Part shown: positions 13,355 to 27,473 of the stretch, piece by piece
How the letters are laid out: the number at the start of each line of letters is the position of its first letter
Numbering within the stretch: position 1 is the stretch's first letter
Assembly: GCA_016839765.1 (NCBI GenBank)
Contig: JAEOTP010000088.1
Location: 1 to 45,807, forward strand
DNA: 45,807 nucleotides
Reading direction: 5' to 3'
Source of the DNA: Promethearchaeota archaeon
GTDB taxonomy: Archaea; Asgardarchaeota; Lokiarchaeia; Sigyniarchaeales; SOKP01
Position numbers and translations under genes: made by a program
The notes under the pieces: model-generated
What the model saw: only the letters and a program-made list of their open reading frames with translations
Databases searched by the model: none
Told to the model about the DNA's origin: nothing

Positions 13355-15232
13355 TCACTCATCTTTAGTTTTTACTAATTTCTTTTTTTTCTCATCAATA
13401 TTAACTTCATGTTCCACTTCAAACTTTTTCGCCCCATCCACATCTCTCTTCATAATTAAATCTCTTCTTTCTTCAGCATACTTATTTTCTTTTAGTTTTA
13501 TTACAGGAATACCAAAATAAATCCAACTGGGTTCAATAACTTGATTGAATAATGTGGTAGAGACAGCCCCTACAAAAGAATCGTGCCCGATTATTGTTCC
13601 TGGAGCAATTGTAGTATGACCTCCGACTAAAACGTAATCATCAAAAATCAATCTTTTTATTACCAAATATTTGCCCACAACCATAGAAGACATAACTGTA
13701 GCCCCCTGCCCTATTAAATTTTTTCTTCCAAAACTTATGAATTCACCGTCGCACCACGCATCATTAAGATGACTCGAAAAATCCATATTTACGCCAAACC
13801 ATTTGAATGCTAATGCATCAATCCAAGGAAGTGGTGAATTTCTCAGAAGCCATAGGGTGATTTTTCTTAGTTGAGTACGGAGCATCCAAAATTCATAATC
13901 AGTATCTCCTATTTCTGCCAAAAATGTGCCCTCTTTAGGTTTATGAATTAAATTTACGAGAATTAACAACAATTTACTAAATAGTAACACTCCCAAAATG
14001 AAAAGATATAACATAGAAATAAGAGATATGGGGAGAAATATAATAGAACTCAGTTTTACTCCCTCCATCGAATATCCATACCAATAAATTGCAACAAGAA
14101 GGCCACTTAACCAGAAAATTGGAAGATAAACCACTAAGAATTTGATATTAATTCTACTAATAGCACTACTCGTTGTAAAGTCTAAAGCCAAATCTTCACT
14201 CGTCAAAGTTGACACATCATTTTGTTCAATTTCTTCACTTATATCAATATCTCCCTTAAAACCCTCTTCTTCATCATCCTCTATTCTCTCTATTATTTCT
14301 TTTGCCTCTTCCTCTTTAACCTTACCGCTCTTCTTCTTTATAAATAGCTCTGGATTTTCGTTTTTCCTTAAATCTTCTTCGCTTAAATCTAGCCAACTCA
14401 TTGTTTTTTTCTTAAAAATCTTACGCATGGGAGCTCCAAAATAAAAATGACGATTTCCTTTAATAACACTATGTTTGACACCACAAGCTAAAGGCAACAT
14501 ATATGCATTATCAGATATCTCACATCCTGGACCAAGCTGATTCATAGCAGCAAGAGTAACATTATCTCCAAGACTAACCTTAAAATAATTAATATTTCCA
14601 AATATTCCAGATACAGTATGACTTGCTAACGAAGAATTAACACCAATATAGCAATTTTTACCAACATCGATAAATTTATCAGAGGCTACTGATTCTTCAA
14701 TAGTGGTTCCTTTTCCTATTTTACTTGTTCCGATAAAATTATAGAACCAGGTTGATAACCAAGGAAATAAACCTTTTCCAAATACATTTTTTCCATATTT
14801 TAATATAAAACTTCTTATATGGTAGTAATTAGCTGTTTTGGAACGAATATTCCTTGGAATAATTCCATCCTTGGAAGGTGAGATTTTTTCTGTTATTTTC
14901 CAGAAAATTTTGGTAATAATTCCAATAAGAAGTAATCTGACGTAATAACCAATAATTAGCACTAAAGGCATAGCTAATAATGCTATTAAGGGCTTAATTT
15001 CAGTAAATATTGCAAAAAAATTGGTAATTCTCAAAAAATAGGGTTCAAAAAATAGAAGAACATAAGAAAAGAATATAAAGCCTGGCACTAACCATGAACC
15101 ATAATAAATAATAAAAAACAAGATAATGTATACATGAAACTGGAGACTCTGTTCTTCCCTAACAACCTCTTCTTCAGTATTATTATCTGAATCTTCATTG
15201 TTTTTTGAATCTTCAGACATTTTAATCATCAA
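13355..15232 (-). CDS. Fused double left-handed beta-helix membrane protein (types A+B1, locus 1)
   Basis: The 625-residue protein has two halves. Half A (about 30-275) has two or three membrane helices, an ISPSKDGIIPRNI motif, YHIRSF and an LbH domain ending in YFGAPMRKIFKKK. An acidic linker (about 290-345) follows. Half B (about 350-600) has two membrane helices, KPKEGTFLAEIGDTDYEFW, an LbH domain with VLVGGHTTIAPGTIIG and a YFGIPVIKL end. Both LbH domains suggest acyl or similar group transfer at the membrane. The donor and acceptor are unknown. The same two halves are separate genes at 22725-24528 and fused again at 25647-27473. An internal Met at residue 5 (15220) is an equally good start. 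Confidence 0.75.
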   Translation of the reverse strand: MMIKMSEDSKNNEDSDNNTEEEVVREEQSLQFHVYIILFFIIYYGSWLVPGFIFFSYVLLFFEPYFLRITNFFAIFTEIKPLIALLAMPLVLIIGYYVRLLLIGIITKIFWKITEKISPSKDGIIPRNIRSKTANYYHIRSFILKYGKNVFGKGLFPWLSTWFYNFIGTSKIGKGTTIEESVASDKFIDVGKNCYIGVNSSLASHTVSGIFGNINYFKVSLGDNVTLAAMNQLGPGCEISDNAYMLPLACGVKHSVIKGNRHFYFGAPMRKIFKKKTMSWLDLSEEDLRKNENPELFIKKKSGKVKEEEAKEIIERIEDDEEEGFKGDIDISEEIEQNDVSTLTSEDLALDFTTSSAISRINIKFLVVYLPIFWLSGLLVAIYWYGYSMEGVKLSSIIFLPISLISMLYLFILGVLLFSKLLLILVNLIHKPKEGTFLAEIGDTDYEFWMLRTQLRKITLWLLRNSPLPWIDALAFKWFGVNMDFSSHLNDAWCDGEFISFGRKNLIGQGATVMSSMVVGKYLVIKRLIFDDYVLVGGHTTIAPGTIIGHDSFVGAVSTTLFNQVIEPSWIYFGIPVIKLKENKYAEERRDLIMKRDVDGAKKFEVEHEVNIDEKKKKLVKTKDE

Positions 15233-19344: not shown

Positions 19345-19746
19345 TTATTGCCAAACGGCTAAAATTAAACCCGCGATTATGAATCCAATCAAGTAAAACC
19401 CATATTCTAAAAGAAAAAGCTTTACTCCTCTATCGTTAAAATTATTTTGATTAATTGCAATAGTTGCAACAAATCCTACCCATAAGAGGATACTTATGAT
19501 TAATGCTGATACAATATCATTCATATTAGTGAGATCCATGATAACCTCAATCATTAGAACAGTAATAAAGCTCGTTGGAATCATTATTATCGTATCTCTA
19601 ATAATTTTTGATTTGGGTTCACTCTCTTTACCGACTAATTTTAGCCACATATTCCCGAAGGCAAAAGGAAAATACCAGAAAAAATGAATCAGAAAATAAA
19701 TTATTGCAACCACAACAACAGCTAACCAGTTAATCATCAAAGCCAT
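19345..19746 (-). CDS. DUF1761-like membrane protein
   Basis: This 133-residue protein has four hydrophobic helices. The opening NWLAVVVVAIIYFLIHFFWY, then FGNMWLKLVGKE, and the later LWVGFVATIAIN fit the DUF1761 pattern (NWxAVxVA...WY...F...W). Function is unknown. The gene lies 22 bp from the stop of the convergent adenylate-forming enzyme gene. Confidence 0.65.
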   Translation of the reverse strand: MALMINWLAVVVVAIIYFLIHFFWYFPFAFGNMWLKLVGKESEPKSKIIRDTIIMIPTSFITVLMIEVIMDLTNMNDIVSALIISILLWVGFVATIAINQNNFNDRGVKLFLLEYGFYLIGFIIAGLILAVWQ

Positions 19747-19851
19747 ATTTTGTCACTTCTTAAATTAATAATTTGTAATTAAAAGGAATATAAATGAACA
19801 ATATTTATTTCTTATTTGTTTAAATTATAAATTAAAATTAATGGGTTTTCA

Positions 19852-20325
19852 ATGAAAGATAAATTCAATTTAGTGGGGACTAAAATAAAACAATTTAAAT
19901 TACCAAACTCAAGAGGCGAAACAAATAGTATTCAGGACTTCTTGGGTCAAAGCGTAGTAATTGTTTTATTCCGGAGTAAAAATTGACCCTATGCTAAAGC
20001 ACATGCAGGAAAACTCGGTGTTGATTTCGATAAATTCAAAGAATACAACGCAATATTATATACGATCTTACCAGATGACCTTGAAAGTGCTAAGAATTTT
20101 GAAGCCAATTTTGCGAAAAATAAATTTCCAATTTATTATGATGCCAAAAAAAAGGTGAATAAAATGTTAAAACAGGAAGTAAAACCTTTAAAACTGGGAA
20201 GGATGCCAGCACTTCTCATAATCGACAAACAAGGGATTATAAAATATGCATATTACAGTGATTCAATGAGTGATATACCAGACAATGAGGAAATTTTTGA
20301 AGTACTCAAAAATCTTAATAAATAA
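19852..20325 (+). CDS. Selenocysteine-containing peroxiredoxin-like protein (UGA read as Sec45)
   Basis: One frame runs from ATG 19852 to TAA 20325 (157 residues) with a single in-frame TGA at 19984-19986. Residues 1-44 lead from KIKQFKLPNSRGETNSIQDF through VVIVLFRSKN, the peroxiredoxin beta-strand before the active site. The TGA then falls exactly where the peroxidatic Cys of the FRxxxCPYC-type motif is expected (FRSKN-U-PYAKAHAGKLG). The thioredoxin fold continues in the same frame, with FPIYYDAKKKVNKML and RMPALLIIDKQGIIKYAYY. No frameshift is needed, and both sides are coding, so Sec insertion is the best reading. TGA acts as a normal stop in other genes here. A stem structure follows the stop. 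It is likely a thiol/selenol peroxidase of the cytoplasm. A nonsense-mutated pseudogene is the alternative. Confidence 0.8.
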
Positions 20326-20329
20326 ATCC

Positions 20330-20400
20330 GATTTGGTTCGAATAAGTTATGAAAAATGATTGAATTTTATTCGATTAAGTTAGCCACACTTTACCAAATC
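20330..20400 (+). promoter_or_regulatory. Candidate SECIS: nested RNA stems after the Sec-peroxiredoxin
   Basis: Starting 5 nt after the stop codon, an outer perfect 8-bp inverted repeat (GATTTGGT 20330-20337 with ACCAAATC 20393-20400) encloses an inner perfect 8-bp repeat (TCGAATAA 20338-20345 with TTATTCGA 20367-20374). The inner apical region is A-rich and contains AUGA and UGAU strings. Archaeal SECIS elements usually lie in 3' UTRs. I could not place the eukaryote-like UGA/GA quartet with certainty. Confidence 0.55.
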
Positions 20401-20443
20401 AATCTTCTTTTATTTAGAAATCAAAAAAAAGAGCTAAATATTT

Positions 20444-20920
20444 TTAAATAGATTTTAGCCCTATTGGTGGTCCTACTTGTTTAAATTTATAAATAAGTTG
20501 ACCTTCTGTGGTAAACATATCCCAACCTTGATCTTTTTCAAAACCATGCGCAGATAAAAAATTTTCTGAAAATTTGTTCCTTGCGGATTGTACCATTTGA
20601 TTAATAACTTCTTTTTTTATTTGATTATTTTCAACTAATTCCAATTTGCCTTGCATTGAAATAAAATAATAACTATTAAGATCTGGTTCAAATTTTTCTA
20701 TTGAAATGCATACATTAGGATTATTTGAAAGGATATCCTTCTTTTTGCCATAATCAGTAAAATGAAAATATAAAGTATCATCAATGAAAACATATTGGAA
20801 CGGTGAGATATATGGATATTCATCATCTATGAATGCAATTCTACATAAATTTTGAGAATTGATTGCTTCTTTTATTTCTTTTTCATTCATTTTTGGTAAT
20901 TTAATAATTCTAATACACAT
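20444..20920 (-). CDS. Pyridoxamine 5'-phosphate oxidase-like flavin-binding protein
   Basis: The protein has the split-barrel pattern of the PNPOx-like family: an N-terminal helix (KMNEKEIKEAINSQNLCRIAF), then EYPYISPFQYVFIDDTLYFH, KKKDILSNNPNVCISIE and a long C-terminal arm. Members bind FMN, F420 or heme and reduce varied small molecules; the substrate is unknown. An upstream Met at 20965 would overlap the UvdE gene by 32 bp, so I choose the Met at 20920 (MCIRIIKLPKM), leaving 13 bp after the UvdE stop. The pair is probably co-transcribed. Confidence 0.78.
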   Translation of the reverse strand: MCIRIIKLPKMNEKEIKEAINSQNLCRIAFIDDEYPYISPFQYVFIDDTLYFHFTDYGKKKDILSNNPNVCISIEKFEPDLNSYYFISMQGKLELVENNQIKKEVINQMVQSARNKFSENFLSAHGFEKDQGWDMFTTEGQLIYKFKQVGPPIGLKSI

Positions 20921-20933
20921 CACTAACTTAATT

Positions 20934-21830
20934 TTAATTGGATAAAAAACGTGGATCATATTCAAGAAGTTTTATTGCCTTTAAAGCACTCCGTTCTTTA
21001 TCTTTTATTTCTAACATAAGGTCAAAATTATAATTTTTCGTCTTATTAATAAAGGTTTTAAAATGTTCGAGTTGAATATTATCAGCATGACTCGGTTGTC
21101 TTTTTATTTGATGTTGAGAGCTATAGTGTACGATAGGCAAGCCATCTCGTTTATTCCACGTTTGTGTGAATTTGCTAAATACCTCTTCAAAAATTTCACC
21201 TGTATTTAAACATTCATGATGATAAACATCAAAAACAATAGGAATAAAAATTTCTTCATAAATTTCCAGACAATCTGCTAAATTAAAACTTTTATCATCA
21301 TTTTCAATAACATATCGTTTTTTAATTTTAGCTGAAAGCTTATTATATCTTTTGCTGAATCTTTTTTTACTTCCCTTTTTATCACCATAAACACCTCCAA
21401 TATGGGTCATAATTTTAGCTGTGCAATCCAAATTCATTAAATCTAAAACATCAGCATGATATTCCAACTCCTTTATACTTGTATTAACAACTTTATCGTT
21501 TTTAGAATTTAACACCGTATATTGACCAGGGTGCATAGAGATTCTCATATTCTGCTTTTTTATAAAGTTCCCTATTTCATTAAACTTTTCTTTGAAATAA
21601 TCTTGCCATTCAAATTTCATAATAGGATGAGAACCAAATGGTATTAAATCAGATGTAATTCTAAAGAAAAAGATTTTGTTATTTTTATTATATTCAAGAA
21701 TTTCTTGTAAACAATCTAAATTTCCATCTATACTTTCAATTAATCTTTCTTCGGAATAATTTTTCAAACGAAAAGTTCTACTACTTTTACAAGTTAATGC
21801 AAGATTTATGCAAGGATAACCGATCTTCAT
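20934..21830 (-). CDS. uvsE: UV damage endonuclease UvdE/UVDE
   Basis: This 298-residue TIM-barrel enzyme has the family's typical opening (MKIGYPCINLAL), FRITSDLIPFGSHP, MRISMHPGQYTVLNS, YHADVLDLM, THIGGVYGDK, VIENDDKSFN and a C-terminal FDVYHHECLN plus HADNI. The His, Glu and Asp residues in these motifs supply the metal site. The enzyme nicks DNA 5' to UV photoproducts and other lesions, an excision-repair route independent of UvrABC. Length is normal. It lies upstream of the PNPOx-like gene on the same strand. Confidence 0.9.
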   Translation of the reverse strand: MKIGYPCINLALTCKSSRTFRLKNYSEERLIESIDGNLDCLQEILEYNKNNKIFFFRITSDLIPFGSHPIMKFEWQDYFKEKFNEIGNFIKKQNMRISMHPGQYTVLNSKNDKVVNTSIKELEYHADVLDLMNLDCTAKIMTHIGGVYGDKKGSKKRFSKRYNKLSAKIKKRYVIENDDKSFNLADCLEIYEEIFIPIVFDVYHHECLNTGEIFEEVFSKFTQTWNKRDGLPIVHYSSQHQIKRQPSHADNIQLEHFKTFINKTKNYNFDLMLEIKDKERSALKAIKLLEYDPRFLSN

Positions 21831-21882: not shown

Positions 21883-22725
21883 TCACACTTGTTTATCTTT
21901 TCGTCTGGTATAGAGTTCTTTGTATTTTTTGCGTAGTTCCTCGATATCATGCTCTTGTTCAGCTATTATTTCTTCTAAACCATCTTCAAAGAACACATCT
22001 CTTTTGTACTTTTTTGCTGGTGCACCGAGATAAACCCATCCTTCTTCTAATTCTTGGCCAACAGTTGTAAGAGAACTTGCAGCAAGAACAGAATCCTTCT
22101 TCATATGAGTTCCCGGCATAACAACTGAATGAGCACCTATTCTAACATTATCTTCGATTATTGTTTTTCTAATTATAAATAGATTTCCAATAATAACTGC
22201 AGATTGAATAACACTCGCTTGACCAACTACAACATTCTTTCCAAATTCAATGAATTCTGTGTCAACCCAGCCTTCAAATAGCGAGTTTGAAAATTGTGTT
22301 TTAACCCCAAACAATTTAAAGCATATATTATCTAAGAAAGGTAATGGAAATTTGTGTGCTATCCATGCTGGCCACTTTTTTATTGTATTTCTAATACTCC
22401 AATATCTATAATCTTTATTCGAGGGGGTCCTAAGAAAGACTCCTTCTCTGGGTTTATGAAAGAGATTAACAATAATAAGTAGGATTTTGGTAAAAAAAAG
22501 GGATACAAATAATAATGAAATATATATTACAAATATGAGAAGAGGAAGAAAAATTATGAAATGAATAAACTTATTGTAATATAATAAGTTCCAATACCAC
22601 CAAAATTCAAATTGGATAACAAAAATGCTAATCCAAATTTGGAATAGATAAAAAATTAAATATTTTTTTTTCACTAAAACATTTGATGTAAAAGGACCAG
22701 CTTTAAGATATGCGGGTACAGACAT
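21883..22725 (-). CDS. Membrane-bound LbH acyltransferase-like protein (type B2, locus 2)
   Basis: This 280-residue paralogue of 12407-13348 shares the MSVP start, the PFTSNVLVKKKYLIFY opening, two membrane segments (about 22-48 and 58-90), KPREGVFLRTPSNKDYRYW and an LbH domain (about 165-250) with VRIGAHSVVMPGTHM and YLGAPAKKYKRD. Its ATG overlaps the TAA of the preceding type-B1 gene by one base (TAATG), so the two are translationally coupled. The lysine/glutamate-rich tail is shorter than in locus 1. It is a predicted acyl or related transferase of unknown substrate. Confidence 0.75.
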   Translation of the reverse strand: MSVPAYLKAGPFTSNVLVKKKYLIFYLFQIWISIFVIQFEFWWYWNLLYYNKFIHFIIFLPLLIFVIYISLLFVSLFFTKILLIIVNLFHKPREGVFLRTPSNKDYRYWSIRNTIKKWPAWIAHKFPLPFLDNICFKLFGVKTQFSNSLFEGWVDTEFIEFGKNVVVGQASVIQSAVIIGNLFIIRKTIIEDNVRIGAHSVVMPGTHMKKDSVLAASSLTTVGQELEEGWVYLGAPAKKYKRDVFFEDGLEEIIAEQEHDIEELRKKYKELYTRRKDKQV

Positions 22726-23630
22726 TATAATTCTCCCTCCTTATTGTTATTTACTAGTTGTTTCTTATCTTCATCAATATTTACATCTTGTTGAATTTCA
22801 TAGGTTATTTCTTCTTCAACATCTTTGATAAATATTTTATCTCGTCTTTGTTCCGCAAATTTATTTGGCTTATATTTCATGGCAGGGAGGCCGACATATA
22901 TCCAGCCAGGTTCAATAAATTGGTTAAAATTTGTATTAGTAAACGCACCTGTTACCGAATCAACTCCCATGAACGTACCAGGTGCTATATTAGATACCCC
23001 TCCTGCAACTGTATAATCCCCAAATATGACCCTCTTTATGATTAAGTACTTTCCAATAACCATTGAACTCATAACTACGCATCCTTGACCAATTGTAACA
23101 TTTCTTCCAAAATCAATGAAATCAGTATCTACCCATGCATCTTGCAGGTGGCTTGAGAAATCTATTTTAACTCCAAACCATCTAAATCCCCACATTACAA
23201 TCCAAGGTAGTGGCCCATTATTCATAAGCCATAATGCCAACTTCTTTAATTGAACTCGTAGTCTCCAAAACTCAAAATCTTTATCTCCTTTTTCCGCCCT
23301 AAAGACACCTTCCCGAGGTTTATATACCATATTAACGATTAATAGAAATGCCTTGCTAAAAATAGCAATTCCAAAGATAAATATAAAGTATAAAATAAAT
23401 AACCAAAACGGTAGGAGAAACATGGTTATAATCCAATTATCAATAAGAGTAGCGACATCAAAAAAAACAGCAACTGCCATGTATCCACTTACCCATAGAA
23501 TTGGAATATATATTGCCAGAAATTTGATACTTATTTTACTAATCGCACTACTTGTTACAAAATCTATTGTGTAATCTACCCTTGTTTTATTGGATTTATT
23601 ATTGTTGTTTGTGGAATCATCACTATCCAT
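22725..23630 (-). CDS. Membrane-bound LbH acyltransferase-like protein (type B1, locus 2; split form)
   Basis: This 301-residue protein matches the second half of the fused 625-residue protein: a VDYTIDFVTSSAISKISIKF lead, two membrane helices (about 40-70, 80-110), KPREGVFRAEKGDKDFEFW, then an LbH domain with YTVAGGVSNIAPGTFMG and YVGLPAMKYK. Here it is a stand-alone gene with its own Asn-rich start (MDSDDSTNNNNKSNK). Its ATG lies 8 bp inside the end of the type-A gene. It forms a tight three-gene operon with the type-A gene upstream and the type-B2 gene downstream. Confidence 0.75.
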   Translation of the reverse strand: MDSDDSTNNNNKSNKTRVDYTIDFVTSSAISKISIKFLAIYIPILWVSGYMAVAVFFDVATLIDNWIITMFLLPFWLFILYFIFIFGIAIFSKAFLLIVNMVYKPREGVFRAEKGDKDFEFWRLRVQLKKLALWLMNNGPLPWIVMWGFRWFGVKIDFSSHLQDAWVDTDFIDFGRNVTIGQGCVVMSSMVIGKYLIIKRVIFGDYTVAGGVSNIAPGTFMGVDSVTGAFTNTNFNQFIEPGWIYVGLPAMKYKPNKFAEQRRDKIFIKDVEEEITYEIQQDVNIDEDKKQLVNNNKEGEL

Positions 23631-24528
23631 TTATCTTACCTCCACCTTTTTTTGGATCTTTCTTTTCTTTTTCCCTTTTAAGCTGTTCTGCTTTCTCAAA
23701 ATCTTCCTCAGATATTTTTAAGTAATCCATTAATCTTTTTTTAAAGATTCTACGTAATGGAGCTCCAAAATAATAATTATCTCCTTTTAAAAGATTATGT
23801 TTGGTTGCACCCGTCATAGGCAATAGCCAAGAATGATCTTTTAGTTCTGAACCAGGTCCAACACAATTAAAAGCAGCAGCTGTTACATTATCTCCAATTT
23901 TAACTCTAAAATAAGAAATATTACCGAATATACCTTCCACAGCATGAGAACTAATTGCTCCATTAACGCCAAAATAACAATTTTTTCCAATGGTTACAAA
24001 TCTATCAGCACCCACATTTTCTTCTAGAGTTGTGCCTTTTCCTATTTTATTAGCTCCAATGAAATTATAAAGCCAATTTATTAACCATGGAAACGGACCT
24101 CTTATAACAGCATTTTTTGGATATTTAATTACAAAACTACGTATGTGGTAGTAATTTAAAGTCTTACTTGGAATATTTCGAGGTAATATTCCGCTTTTTG
24201 AAGGAGATATCTTTTCAGTGGTCCTCCAAATCCCCCTCGTAATAAGTCCTACAAAGAAAATATGGATCAAATAGCATAAGACTATTACCAAGGGCATGAA
24301 AATTGAAGCTAAGAGTGGTTCTAATTGCGTGAAAAGTAATAGAAAACTGCTGGTATCTAAAAAATATGGTAAATAAAAAAGCATGACATAAACCATAAAT
24401 ATAATCGCGGGGATTAGAAAAGACCCGAAATAGATAATGAAAAATAAAAATAAATACCAATGAAACTGTAAATTAATTTCTTCCTTTATGATTTCGTTAC
24501 TGGTACTACTTTGAGGCGAATTTTCCAT
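23623..24528 (-). CDS. Membrane-bound LbH protein (type A, locus 2; split form)
   Basis: This 301-residue protein matches the first half of the fused proteins: LQFHWYLFLFFIIYFGSFLIPAI, a second membrane region (about 75-100), ISPSKSGILPRNIPSKTLNYYHIRSF, an LbH domain (about 155-250) with IGKGTTLEENVG and IGKNCYFGVNG, then YYFGAPLRRIFKKR and a short Lys/Gly-rich tail. It overlaps the next gene (MDSDDS...) by 8 bp. In loci 1 and 3 an acidic or Lys/Glu-rich linker fuses this unit to type B1 at the same place. It is the first gene of the operon. Confidence 0.75.
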   Translation of the reverse strand: MENSPQSSTSNEIIKEEINLQFHWYLFLFFIIYFGSFLIPAIIFMVYVMLFYLPYFLDTSSFLLLFTQLEPLLASIFMPLVIVLCYLIHIFFVGLITRGIWRTTEKISPSKSGILPRNIPSKTLNYYHIRSFVIKYPKNAVIRGPFPWLINWLYNFIGANKIGKGTTLEENVGADRFVTIGKNCYFGVNGAISSHAVEGIFGNISYFRVKIGDNVTAAAFNCVGPGSELKDHSWLLPMTGATKHNLLKGDNYYFGAPLRRIFKKRLMDYLKISEEDFEKAEQLKREKEKKDPKKGGGKING

Positions 24529-25646: not shown

Positions 25647-27473
25647 CTAAAGCTTTTCCTTTTTATCTTCTTCAATATTCACTTCATGTTGAATATCAAA
25701 TTTTATTTCTTTATCGACATCTTTTTTTACAATGATATCCCGCCTTGATTCAGCATACTTATTTGGCTTTAATTTGATTGCTGGAATTCCGATATAAATA
25801 AAGCCAGGTTCTAATATTTGGTTATAAGTTGTAGTTGAGATGGCTCCTATCATAGTATCTCTCCCCACAATAGTCCCTGGAGCAATAGTTGAATGTCCTC
25901 CAATAAGAGCATAATCATCAAGAAATATTTTAGAAATTACGAGATACTTTCCTATTACCATTGAACTCATCAATGTTGCACCCTGACCTACAACAACTTT
26001 TCTTCCCAAGTATAAGAATTCTCCATCACACCATGCATCATATAGATAACTCGAAAAATCCATTTTTATTCCAAACCATTTGAAAGCAAGGACATCTGCC
26101 CATGGAATGGGGCAATTTCTCATGAGCCATAAGACTATTTTTTTTAATTCAGTGCGTAGCATCCAAAATTCATAATCAGTATCTCCTATTTCTGCCAGAA
26201 ATGTACCCTCTTTTGGTTTATGAAGTAAATTAACCAGGATTAGAAAAAGTTTACTATATAAGAAACATCCTAGGATAAAAATAAAATATAATACAAATAA
26301 TATAAATGGTAAAAAAAAAGTAAACATAATCAGATTTTTAACGAAAAACGTGTAGGTATAAAACAACACTGCTACTTGTAGCCCGCTTATCCAAAAAATG
26401 GGTAGATAAACTGCTAGAAATTTTATATTTATTCGACTTATTGCTGAGCTAGTAGTAAAATCAAGATTGTAATCTACATTTTCATATTCAATTTCATTAA
26501 TTTGTTCATTTAGTTTTAGTTGGGTTGAATCAACTTCTTTTTTTTCTTGCTTTTTTTTAATTTTTTTATTCTCCTTATTAGGTTTCTTCATAACTTCTAT
26601 GTTTTCTAAAGAAATTTTATTTTGCTCTAAGTCCTCAGGAGTTAAACCTAAATAGTTCATAACTTTTTTATCAAAGATTTTCCTTAAAGGAATACCAAAA
26701 TAATAATGGTGGTCTCCCTTTACAACACTGTGTTTAGTTGCGGACGCTAAAGGTAATAGATAGGAATTACTATGAATCATTGTACCAGGTGCAATTTGAT
26801 TACTTCCTGCAATAGTAATATTATCGCCTACTTGTATTTGAAAATATGATATATTTCCCCATACTCCGTCTATTAAATGTGTAGCTAAGGTAGAATTGAC
26901 TCCGATATAACAATTTTTTCCGACAATTGCAAACTTTTCGTTACCTACAGATTCTTCAAAAGAGGTTCCTTTTCCAATAACCATTGAACCTATATAATTG
27001 TATAACCAATTCGATAACCATGGAAATAATCCTTTAACAAACATATTTTTAGGATACTTCATAAGGAATGATCTTATATGATAAAATTTCTCCGTTTTAC
27101 TTTTAATATTTCGGGGGATTATACCATTTTTAGATGGTGATTTACTTTCAGTATATGCCCATATCACACGTGTGATTAAGGCAATGAAATATAATCTAAT
27201 AAGATAACATACAATTAAAACGAGTGGCATTGTAAGTAAAGCCATCAGGGGTTCGATTTCTGTAAAAATGGCGATAAAATTTGAAATTTCCAGGAAGTTA
27301 GGTAAAAAATATAAGAAAAAGTACAACATAAAAACTGCGATTGGCACTAAAAATGAGCCTAGATAGTTTGTTAATAATATCATAAATGACAAAATCAGGG
27401 AGTAACTCATTTCTTCCCTGAAAACTTCAGGTTTTAAACTCTTGGATGCTTTACTATTTTTTTTCGATTCCAT
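25647..27473 (-). CDS. Fused double LbH membrane protein (types A+B1, locus 3)
   Basis: This 608-residue paralogue of 13355-15232 has half A with LILSFMILLTNYLGSFLVPI, KSPSKNGIIPRNIKSKT and an LbH ending YFGIPLRKIFDKK. A Lys/Glu-rich linker (about 285-335) follows. Half B has DFTTSSAISRINIKFLAVY, KPKEGTFLAEIGDTDYEFW, ALIGGHSTIAPGTIVG and YIGIPAIKLKP. The EGTFLAEIGDTDYEFWMLRT stretch is identical in locus 1, pointing to close kinship or strong constraint. Unlike loci 1 and 2, no type-B2 gene follows; the next gene downstream is the DUF1295 gene. The N-terminal KSPSK replaces the ISPSK of the other loci. Confidence 0.75.
   Translation of the reverse strand: MESKKNSKASKSLKPEVFREEMSYSLILSFMILLTNYLGSFLVPIAVFMLYFFLYFLPNFLEISNFIAIFTEIEPLMALLTMPLVLIVCYLIRLYFIALITRVIWAYTESKSPSKNGIIPRNIKSKTEKFYHIRSFLMKYPKNMFVKGLFPWLSNWLYNYIGSMVIGKGTSFEESVGNEKFAIVGKNCYIGVNSTLATHLIDGVWGNISYFQIQVGDNITIAGSNQIAPGTMIHSNSYLLPLASATKHSVVKGDHHYYFGIPLRKIFDKKVMNYLGLTPEDLEQNKISLENIEVMKKPNKENKKIKKKQEKKEVDSTQLKLNEQINEIEYENVDYNLDFTTSSAISRINIKFLAVYLPIFWISGLQVAVLFYTYTFFVKNLIMFTFFLPFILFVLYFIFILGCFLYSKLFLILVNLLHKPKEGTFLAEIGDTDYEFWMLRTELKKIVLWLMRNCPIPWADVLAFKWFGIKMDFSSYLYDAWCDGEFLYLGRKVVVGQGATLMSSMVIGKYLVISKIFLDDYALIGGHSTIAPGTIVGRDTMIGAISTTTYNQILEPGFIYIGIPAIKLKPNKYAESRRDIIVKKDVDKEIKFDIQHEVNIEEDKKEKL

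Follow-up and report, generated by a model that had tools for sequence, protein, structure and literature searches.

A structured element directly behind a selenoprotein gene

The window analysed here is contig JAEOTP010000088.1 (45,807 nt) from a Promethearchaeota archaeon, assembly GCA_016839765.1, which in our numbering is contig C76 of genome G000. Its forward strand carries prxL, a gene for a peroxiredoxin-like protein with an in-frame UGA read as selenocysteine (Sec), followed immediately by a 73-nt element modelled as a three-way junction (Table 1). Very probably, this element is the Sec insertion sequence (SECIS) of Asgard prxL genes, in a variant without the usual core and located in the 3′ untranslated region (UTR). 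Three observations support this reading: covariation across homologues, a nearly exclusive linkage to Sec-encoding prxL genes, and the presence of Sec genes in the same genome. The position of the element suggests that it is transcribed together with prxL.

The prxL product matches the AhpC-TSA domain (PF00578) with E 2.9e-20 when the Sec codon is read as Cys, and its homologues share the in-frame TGA. We take the gene to be a member of the prxL family, a peroxiredoxin-like selenoprotein family of Asgard archaea described in PMC11227280 (this and the other papers below are cited from parts of their text). It ends in a TAA codon at 20323–20325, and the outer stem of the element starts 4 nt past it. 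The Sec machinery found in the genome comprises a tRNA-Sec above the search cut-off (62.1 bits, cut-off 47), SepSecS, and SelD. The tRNA-Sec lies on contig C34, about 220 bp before the SepSecS match and on the same strand (G000:C34:4361–5826), and the SelD gene itself has one in-frame TGA. The same tRNA-Sec search returned some match in all 14 control genomes, above the cut-off in 5 of them.

Table 1. Positions of the gene, its Sec codon and the parts of the downstream element in the window
Feature	Position	Strand	Partner or basis
prxL, peroxiredoxin-like selenoprotein, 157 aa, Sec at residue 45 (SKN-U-PYA)	19852–20325	+	translation with TGA read as U
UGA read as Sec	19984–19986	+	about 340 nt 5′ of the element; 39 of 40 named loci share this TGA
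Whole element, putative SECIS, three-way junction, 73 nt	20329–20401	+	model R1, built with the window copy left out
P1, 5′ strand (outer stem)	20330–20337	+	pairs with 20393–20400; double changes: 5 of 8 pairs (31 sequences), 6 of 8 (alignment A5)
P2, 5′ strand (inner stem, 20338–20345 in its perfect part)	20338–20348	+	pairs with 20364–20374; RNAalifold with no structure supplied
P2, A-rich apical loop	20349–20363	+	A-rich apical stretches in SelD and FrhD elements too
P2, 3′ strand	20364–20374	+	pairs with 20338–20348; same basis as the 5′ strand
P3, third hairpin (AAGU 20377–20380, loop UAGCCAC 20381–20387, ACUU 20388–20391)	20377–20391	+	RNAalifold
P1, 3′ strand	20393–20400	+	pairs with 20330–20337; reverse complement and covariation

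The first-pass annotation, made from the sequence alone, had proposed a divergent SECIS here on the strength of two perfect 8-nt reverse complements, 20330–20337/20393–20400 and 20338–20345/20367–20374. Both repeats are exact, and their coordinates confirm that the outer and inner stems abut on the 5′ side. Among 5000 dinucleotide shuffles of 20326–20443, 16 contain a nested pair of 8-bp stems whose 5′ arms are separated by no more than 3 nt; of 775 tiles (118 nt) along the plus strand of the window, one does. The 3′ side, described as a large internal loop, is not open and holds a conserved third hairpin, P3, that had been overlooked. In the window copy, P2 contains one mismatch, U20347–U20365.

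Covariation supports three helices

We read the 3′ flanks of 29 of the 30 prxL loci fetched (one locus, L017, ends at a contig edge), which with two further copies nearby gave 31 sequences. From this set and no structural input, RNAalifold arrived at P2 and P3; 7 of their 12 pairs show double changes. P1 was not proposed, and MAFFT had misplaced its 3′ strand in a few rows; with this strand right-justified, double changes appear in 5 of the 8 pairs and the observed percentage paired is reached by 0 of 1000 shuffles. Covariance model R1 was built from 23 of these sequences (alignment A2), from which the window copy and the misaligning rows had been removed; pairing holds in 91.9% of the alignment's cells, and double changes appear at 11 of its 22 pairs. 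With R1, the window copy scores 78.3 bits (E 6.4e-16), and the window contains just one other match, at E 0.62. A scan with ready-made models, which the first-pass annotation had also suggested, was less productive than this homologue-built model: Rfam gave no match above threshold anywhere in the window. Of the two refuting conditions named in that annotation, the lack of a SECIS-model hit thus holds for ready-made models, and the lack of covariation does not hold (see below). A permissive Rfam scan of 19700–20900 returned 10 matches, all far below their own cut-offs; the best, a csRNA hit to the element's minus strand that scored 28 bits where 57 are required (E 0.29), was taken as chance.

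The widest alignment, A5, brings together 46 matches, some of them from outside the family (45 distinct rows), and leans towards the modelled structure, to which its rows were aligned. In A5, 93.6% of cells pair, double changes occur in 19 of 22 pairs (9 of 10 in P2 and 4 of 4 in P3), and on each of five covariation measures the observed value is reached by 0 of 500 shuffles. The compensatory changes by which the first-pass annotation had suggested checking the stems in homologous 3′ UTRs are therefore present, and RNAalifold proposes all three helices on this alignment. P1, P2, and P3 form a selected three-way junction, with covariation in all three helices. Among 15 further elements, 13 of them from outside the family and two identical, the minimum-energy fold is a three-way junction in 13.

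Within this plan the two upper arms vary differently. P2, counted as 10 modelled pairs with mismatches not tallied per copy, carries an A-rich apical loop. The stem of P3 changes from copy to copy (AAGU/ACUU, AAGGU/ACCUU, AACU/AGUU, GAUC/GAUC, and UGGGC/GCCCA), and its loop is nearly invariant, starting with UAGCCA, or with UAGCAA or UAGCAG in two records.

The element accompanies Sec-encoding prxL genes

We searched a family set of 65 genomes and a phylum set of 227 genomes, family included, with an R1 threshold of E ≤0.01 (G, C, L, and f numbers are our own labels for genomes, contigs, loci, and families). A protein match was found in 36 of the 65 family genomes; in 32 of these it is a UGA-bearing prxL, and in the other 4 it is only a distant peroxiredoxin (Prx). 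The element is present in all 29 prxL flanks examined. It also follows every intact prxL gene of the family for which downstream DNA is available, 32 of 32, a count set apart from two genes cut at contig edges (G051 and G004) and one decayed copy in G027. That decayed copy, with 2 TGA and 3 TAA codons, has no element of its own. R1 gave 34 family matches, 33 of them directly behind prxL (the 32 intact genes and one fragment, in G022); the one remaining match (G001, E 0.006) lies inside an open reading frame (ORF). Across the phylum set there were 47 matches, 45 behind prxL and 2 within unrelated ORFs. The UGA-bearing prxL of G150 was missed at E 0.01 and matched at E 9e-7 in another R1 search, while at the UGA-bearing prxL genes of G157, G158, G160, and G161 R1 was silent even at E 5 and the UAGCCA hairpin is present.

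Of 40 loci taken from named genomes, 39 have TGA at the Sec site; this collection overlaps with the model searches and is not independent of them. A UAGC[CA][AG] hairpin (at least 3 pairs, within 150 nt) follows all 37 named UGA-bearing loci with downstream DNA; of 1794 control stretches taken from those loci, 28 passed the same test (251 when only the loop letters were required). The single UGA-less homologue, in Helarchaeota Hel_GB_A (L111/L155, positions 885–1355 of L111; G144), has Asp at the Sec site and lacks the UAGC hairpin (n = 1); it is possible that Sec was lost there together with its signal. The closest named homologues of prxL come from Lokiarchaeota/Lokiarchaeia metagenome-assembled genomes, and others from records titled Hel-, Jord-, Borr-, and Sigynarchaea, one Freyarchaeota, and one Bathyarchaeota.

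Two variant situations were observed beside these. A C-terminal prxL fragment that is missing the Sec site (G152:C34; L127 213–340) has no R1 match. The sequence flanking it folds into a three-way junction whose third loop is another one, AUAGG[CAGCAC]CCUAU, and may represent one more variant. Three Prx-like paralogues (G175:C4:147–620, G176:C4:673922–674398, and G177:C16:24401–24877; L114, L115, and L116) have two in-frame TGA codons spaced UxxU (UANU, UGHU) where most others have UPYC, and the same element follows each. They belong to one non-Loki family (f26), and the matching named records are Borrarchaeal. The spacing of the two codons raises the possibility of double-Sec redox sites.

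The kink-turn core is absent from prxL elements

An AUGA_GA kink-turn core has been reported for Asgard SECIS elements, and type I is given as the major eSECIS-like form of prxL (PMC11227280). The first-pass annotation could not place a UGA/GA quartet, and this proved correct: a search for the strict core, [AG]UGA–stem–GA, within prxL elements found it in 0 of 29. The columns at the base of P2 are instead ordinary pairs. In the 45 rows of A5, the first column pair is G-C in 36, A-U in 5, G-U in 2, U-A in 1, and other in 1, and the second is A-U in 39, G-C in 4, G-U in 1, and other in 1. A kink-turn at this site was rejected because its columns covary as Watson-Crick pairs. A loose GA_AA at columns 8–9 was also rejected: G8 is paired in P1 (G-C in 44 rows, A-U in 1), and many copies read GGT.

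These data bear on the alternative that an ordinary Asgard eSECIS-like structure (AUGA_GA, type I) lies elsewhere in the 3′ UTR and that the conserved element has another role. The published assignment favours this alternative, as does a loose type I pattern (our own version, without indels), which matches all 29 prxL regions and falls within the element in 21; however, every one of 290 dinucleotide shuffles matched as well, so the pattern does not discriminate. The strict core, by comparison, occurs in only 2 of 29 prxL regions of 630 nt (shuffles, mean 15%), as opposed to 13 of 19 SelD UTRs of ≤110 nt, where the SelD of G000, which reads UUGA, is among the 6 misses. Together with the Watson-Crick covariation at the base of P2, this makes a separate type I structure highly improbable. 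The poor discrimination of the loose pattern could be the reason for the published type I assignment of prxL; the authors of PMC11227280 applied folding and energy filters besides the pattern.

A third hairpin in SelD and FrhD elements

The SelD elements of the same family follow the overall plan of the prxL element. RNAalifold on 16 of them placed a lower stem, an upper stem, a ministem, and P3, with double changes in 4 of 6 P3 pairs; these 16 come from 20 fetched, one locus (L034) having no UTR for the matched gene and three elements being of another form. SelD and FrhD elements of the family mostly retain the kink-turn core, and the second loop has counterparts in core-bearing SECIS elements. 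For FrhD, 17 of 20 flanks fitted the core search, which is no test, because the search picks the best fit. Two groups of 9 and 5 of the 20 FrhD elements, six having been left out by hand, were folded apart because MAFFT misaligned them together (alignment A6). RNAalifold placed a P3 hairpin in both groups and proposed P1 in neither. Taken element by element, with the three lacking a strict core left out, the signal is weaker: for only 7 of 17 does the best P3 outscore its shuffles at p < 0.05, and the median p is 0.105. The P3 loops of SelD and FrhD tend towards UGCRA-like letters. A SelD-derived model, R2, gave weak matches at three FrhD loci (L083, E 1.7; L085, E 0.14; L094, E 0.2), each beginning 2–8 nt past the first base of the FrhD stop codon, which is suggestive only.

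A role of the element at the 3′ end of the prxL mRNA, in stability, processing, or termination rather than recoding, can be weighed at this point. Such a role would suit the position immediately past the stop codon and the T-rich stretches downstream in many homologues; a scan of 20200–20700 built for bacterial-type terminators, however, found no terminator-like site. It also fits poorly with 45 of 47 matches in 227 genomes standing behind one gene family, with the missing element at the sole UGA-less homologue, and with the plan shared with SelD and FrhD elements, which would not be expected for another function. We consider this explanation very unlikely, at about the same level as a type I structure elsewhere in the UTR or marginally above it.

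Evidence against the assignment

Several results weigh against a SECIS assignment. Single-sequence folding, the first check that the first-pass annotation had named, is weak in the window copy (z −1.43; 21 of 200 shuffles as good). The minimum-energy fold (−14.6 kcal/mol) keeps P1 and displaces P2 by a competing hairpin; the comparative structure on this copy scores −10.6 to −12.0 kcal/mol, depending on which weak pairs are written. As the single-sequence fold is unremarkable and departs from the comparative structure, the evidence rests on homologues. A weak z score is also what chance inverted repeats in AT-rich DNA would give, yet the rarity of the nested stems in shuffles and a covariation that no shuffle matched leave that explanation a negligible probability, and the homologues refute it.

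Further pair types, one of the five covariation measures, are not above shuffles in A2 (91 of 500) or in A3 (145 of 500), although they are in A5. At the four distant UGA-bearing loci (L112, L113, L118, and L119), R1 gives no match even at E 5, and the UAGCCA hairpin is all that is seen of the element. A divergent UGA-bearing homologue with 40% identity (G148:C168:5649–6092; L170) has no recognisable element, its UTR hairpin carrying the apical loop GAUAAAAACGAG, which resembles FrhD apical loops. A broken prxL copy (G152:C54) has no recognisable element either, and the UGA-less control is a single locus. Finally, the models do not cross-recognise: R2 on 29 prxL loci gave a best E of 0.15, with 0 of 4 matches at the element, and R1 on 40 SelD and FrhD loci gave a best E of 0.026 (L096), inside an ORF. 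Because R1 and R2 miss each other's elements, the likeness between prxL and SelD/FrhD is one of plan and not of sequence.

Proposed mechanism and significance

For the prxL element as a SECIS, we propose that P1 would close the junction, P2 would display the A-rich apical loop, and P3 would present the near-invariant UAGCCA loop. The junction would recruit the Sec elongation factor, so that the ribosome reads the UGA as Sec. Reported distances between UGA and SECIS range from 70 to 1500 nt (PMC9499178). The P3 loop and the apical loop could be the contacts for an Asgard factor, EFSec or another binder, in place of the kink-turn. The SECIS-binding factor of archaea is unknown, and how archaea link SECIS to the elongation factor is open (PMC9499178); an SBP2 homologue is reported as missing from Asgard archaea (PMC11227280, PMC9723677). 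We tentatively suggest, as an idea that may well prove wrong, that Asgard SECIS elements share P3, that its loop is read by an SBP2-independent factor, and that the kink-turn is dispensable, with plain pairs taking its place in prxL.

At the top of P2, an inverted tandem GA (5′-GA ... NGA-3′) is found in 28 of 46 copies. It could form a K-loop, a motif of the kind that an L7Ae-type protein could bind. We treat this as a lead only, because one or both sides are missing in 18 of 46 copies.

Asgard SECIS elements serve as a bridge from archaeal to eukaryotic recoding by way of the kink-turn core. A core-less class that spans several Asgard lineages and has a near-invariant second loop shifts attention to a different recognition site. 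In the search for the factor, the element would serve as a definite RNA bait together with its mutants, and the covariance model can be used to detect further genes of this type. No description of P3 in Asgard SECIS elements was found in the passages of the literature that were consulted, and P3 may have been drawn elsewhere.

Neighbouring genes

A DUF1761 gene (19348–19746, minus strand) is divergent from prxL. Similar upstream letters are found again at a number of homologous loci, among them L004, L008, L010, and L014, which suggests that DUF1761 is a conserved neighbour of prxL. On the minus strand, a gene for a UvdE/UvsE-type UV damage endonuclease lies at 20937–21830, and similar-looking large ORFs are repeated in one neighbourhood (13355–15232, 21883–24528, and 25647–27473), the first of which has hexapeptide-transferase matches.

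Comparison with known SECIS classes

The prxL family is one of the gene families of the Asgard eSECIS-like set (PMC11227280). Like types I and II of that set, the element lies in the 3′ UTR of a Sec gene and has a lower stem, an upper stem, and an A-rich apical loop; P2 agrees with the upper stem of 7–15 bp that carries this loop. It differs from them in two respects: it has P3, which is absent from the models described in the cited parts of that paper, and it has no GA_[G/A]A non-Watson-Crick core below the upper stem. Lokiarchaeal SECIS elements have been described with a single apical loop (PMC9499178), whereas P3 adds a second one in prxL, SelD, and two FrhD groups.

With eukaryotic SECIS elements (PMC11227280, PMC9499178) the prxL element shares the 3′ UTR location, two stems, and an apical loop containing A residues. 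In contrast to their SBP2-bound kink-turn, it has no GA_GA quartet and instead forms a three-way junction with a second loop. The methanogen eaSECIS (PMC11881835) is likewise archaeal and located in the 3′ UTR, and a lokiarchaeal SECIS was non-functional in M. maripaludis (PMC11881835). Unlike the methanogen element, the covariation-supported prxL structure has no GAA_A bulge between P1 and P2, a comparison made on that structure with no separate pattern search. Relative to the methanogen eaSECIS, the prxL element is larger and branched.
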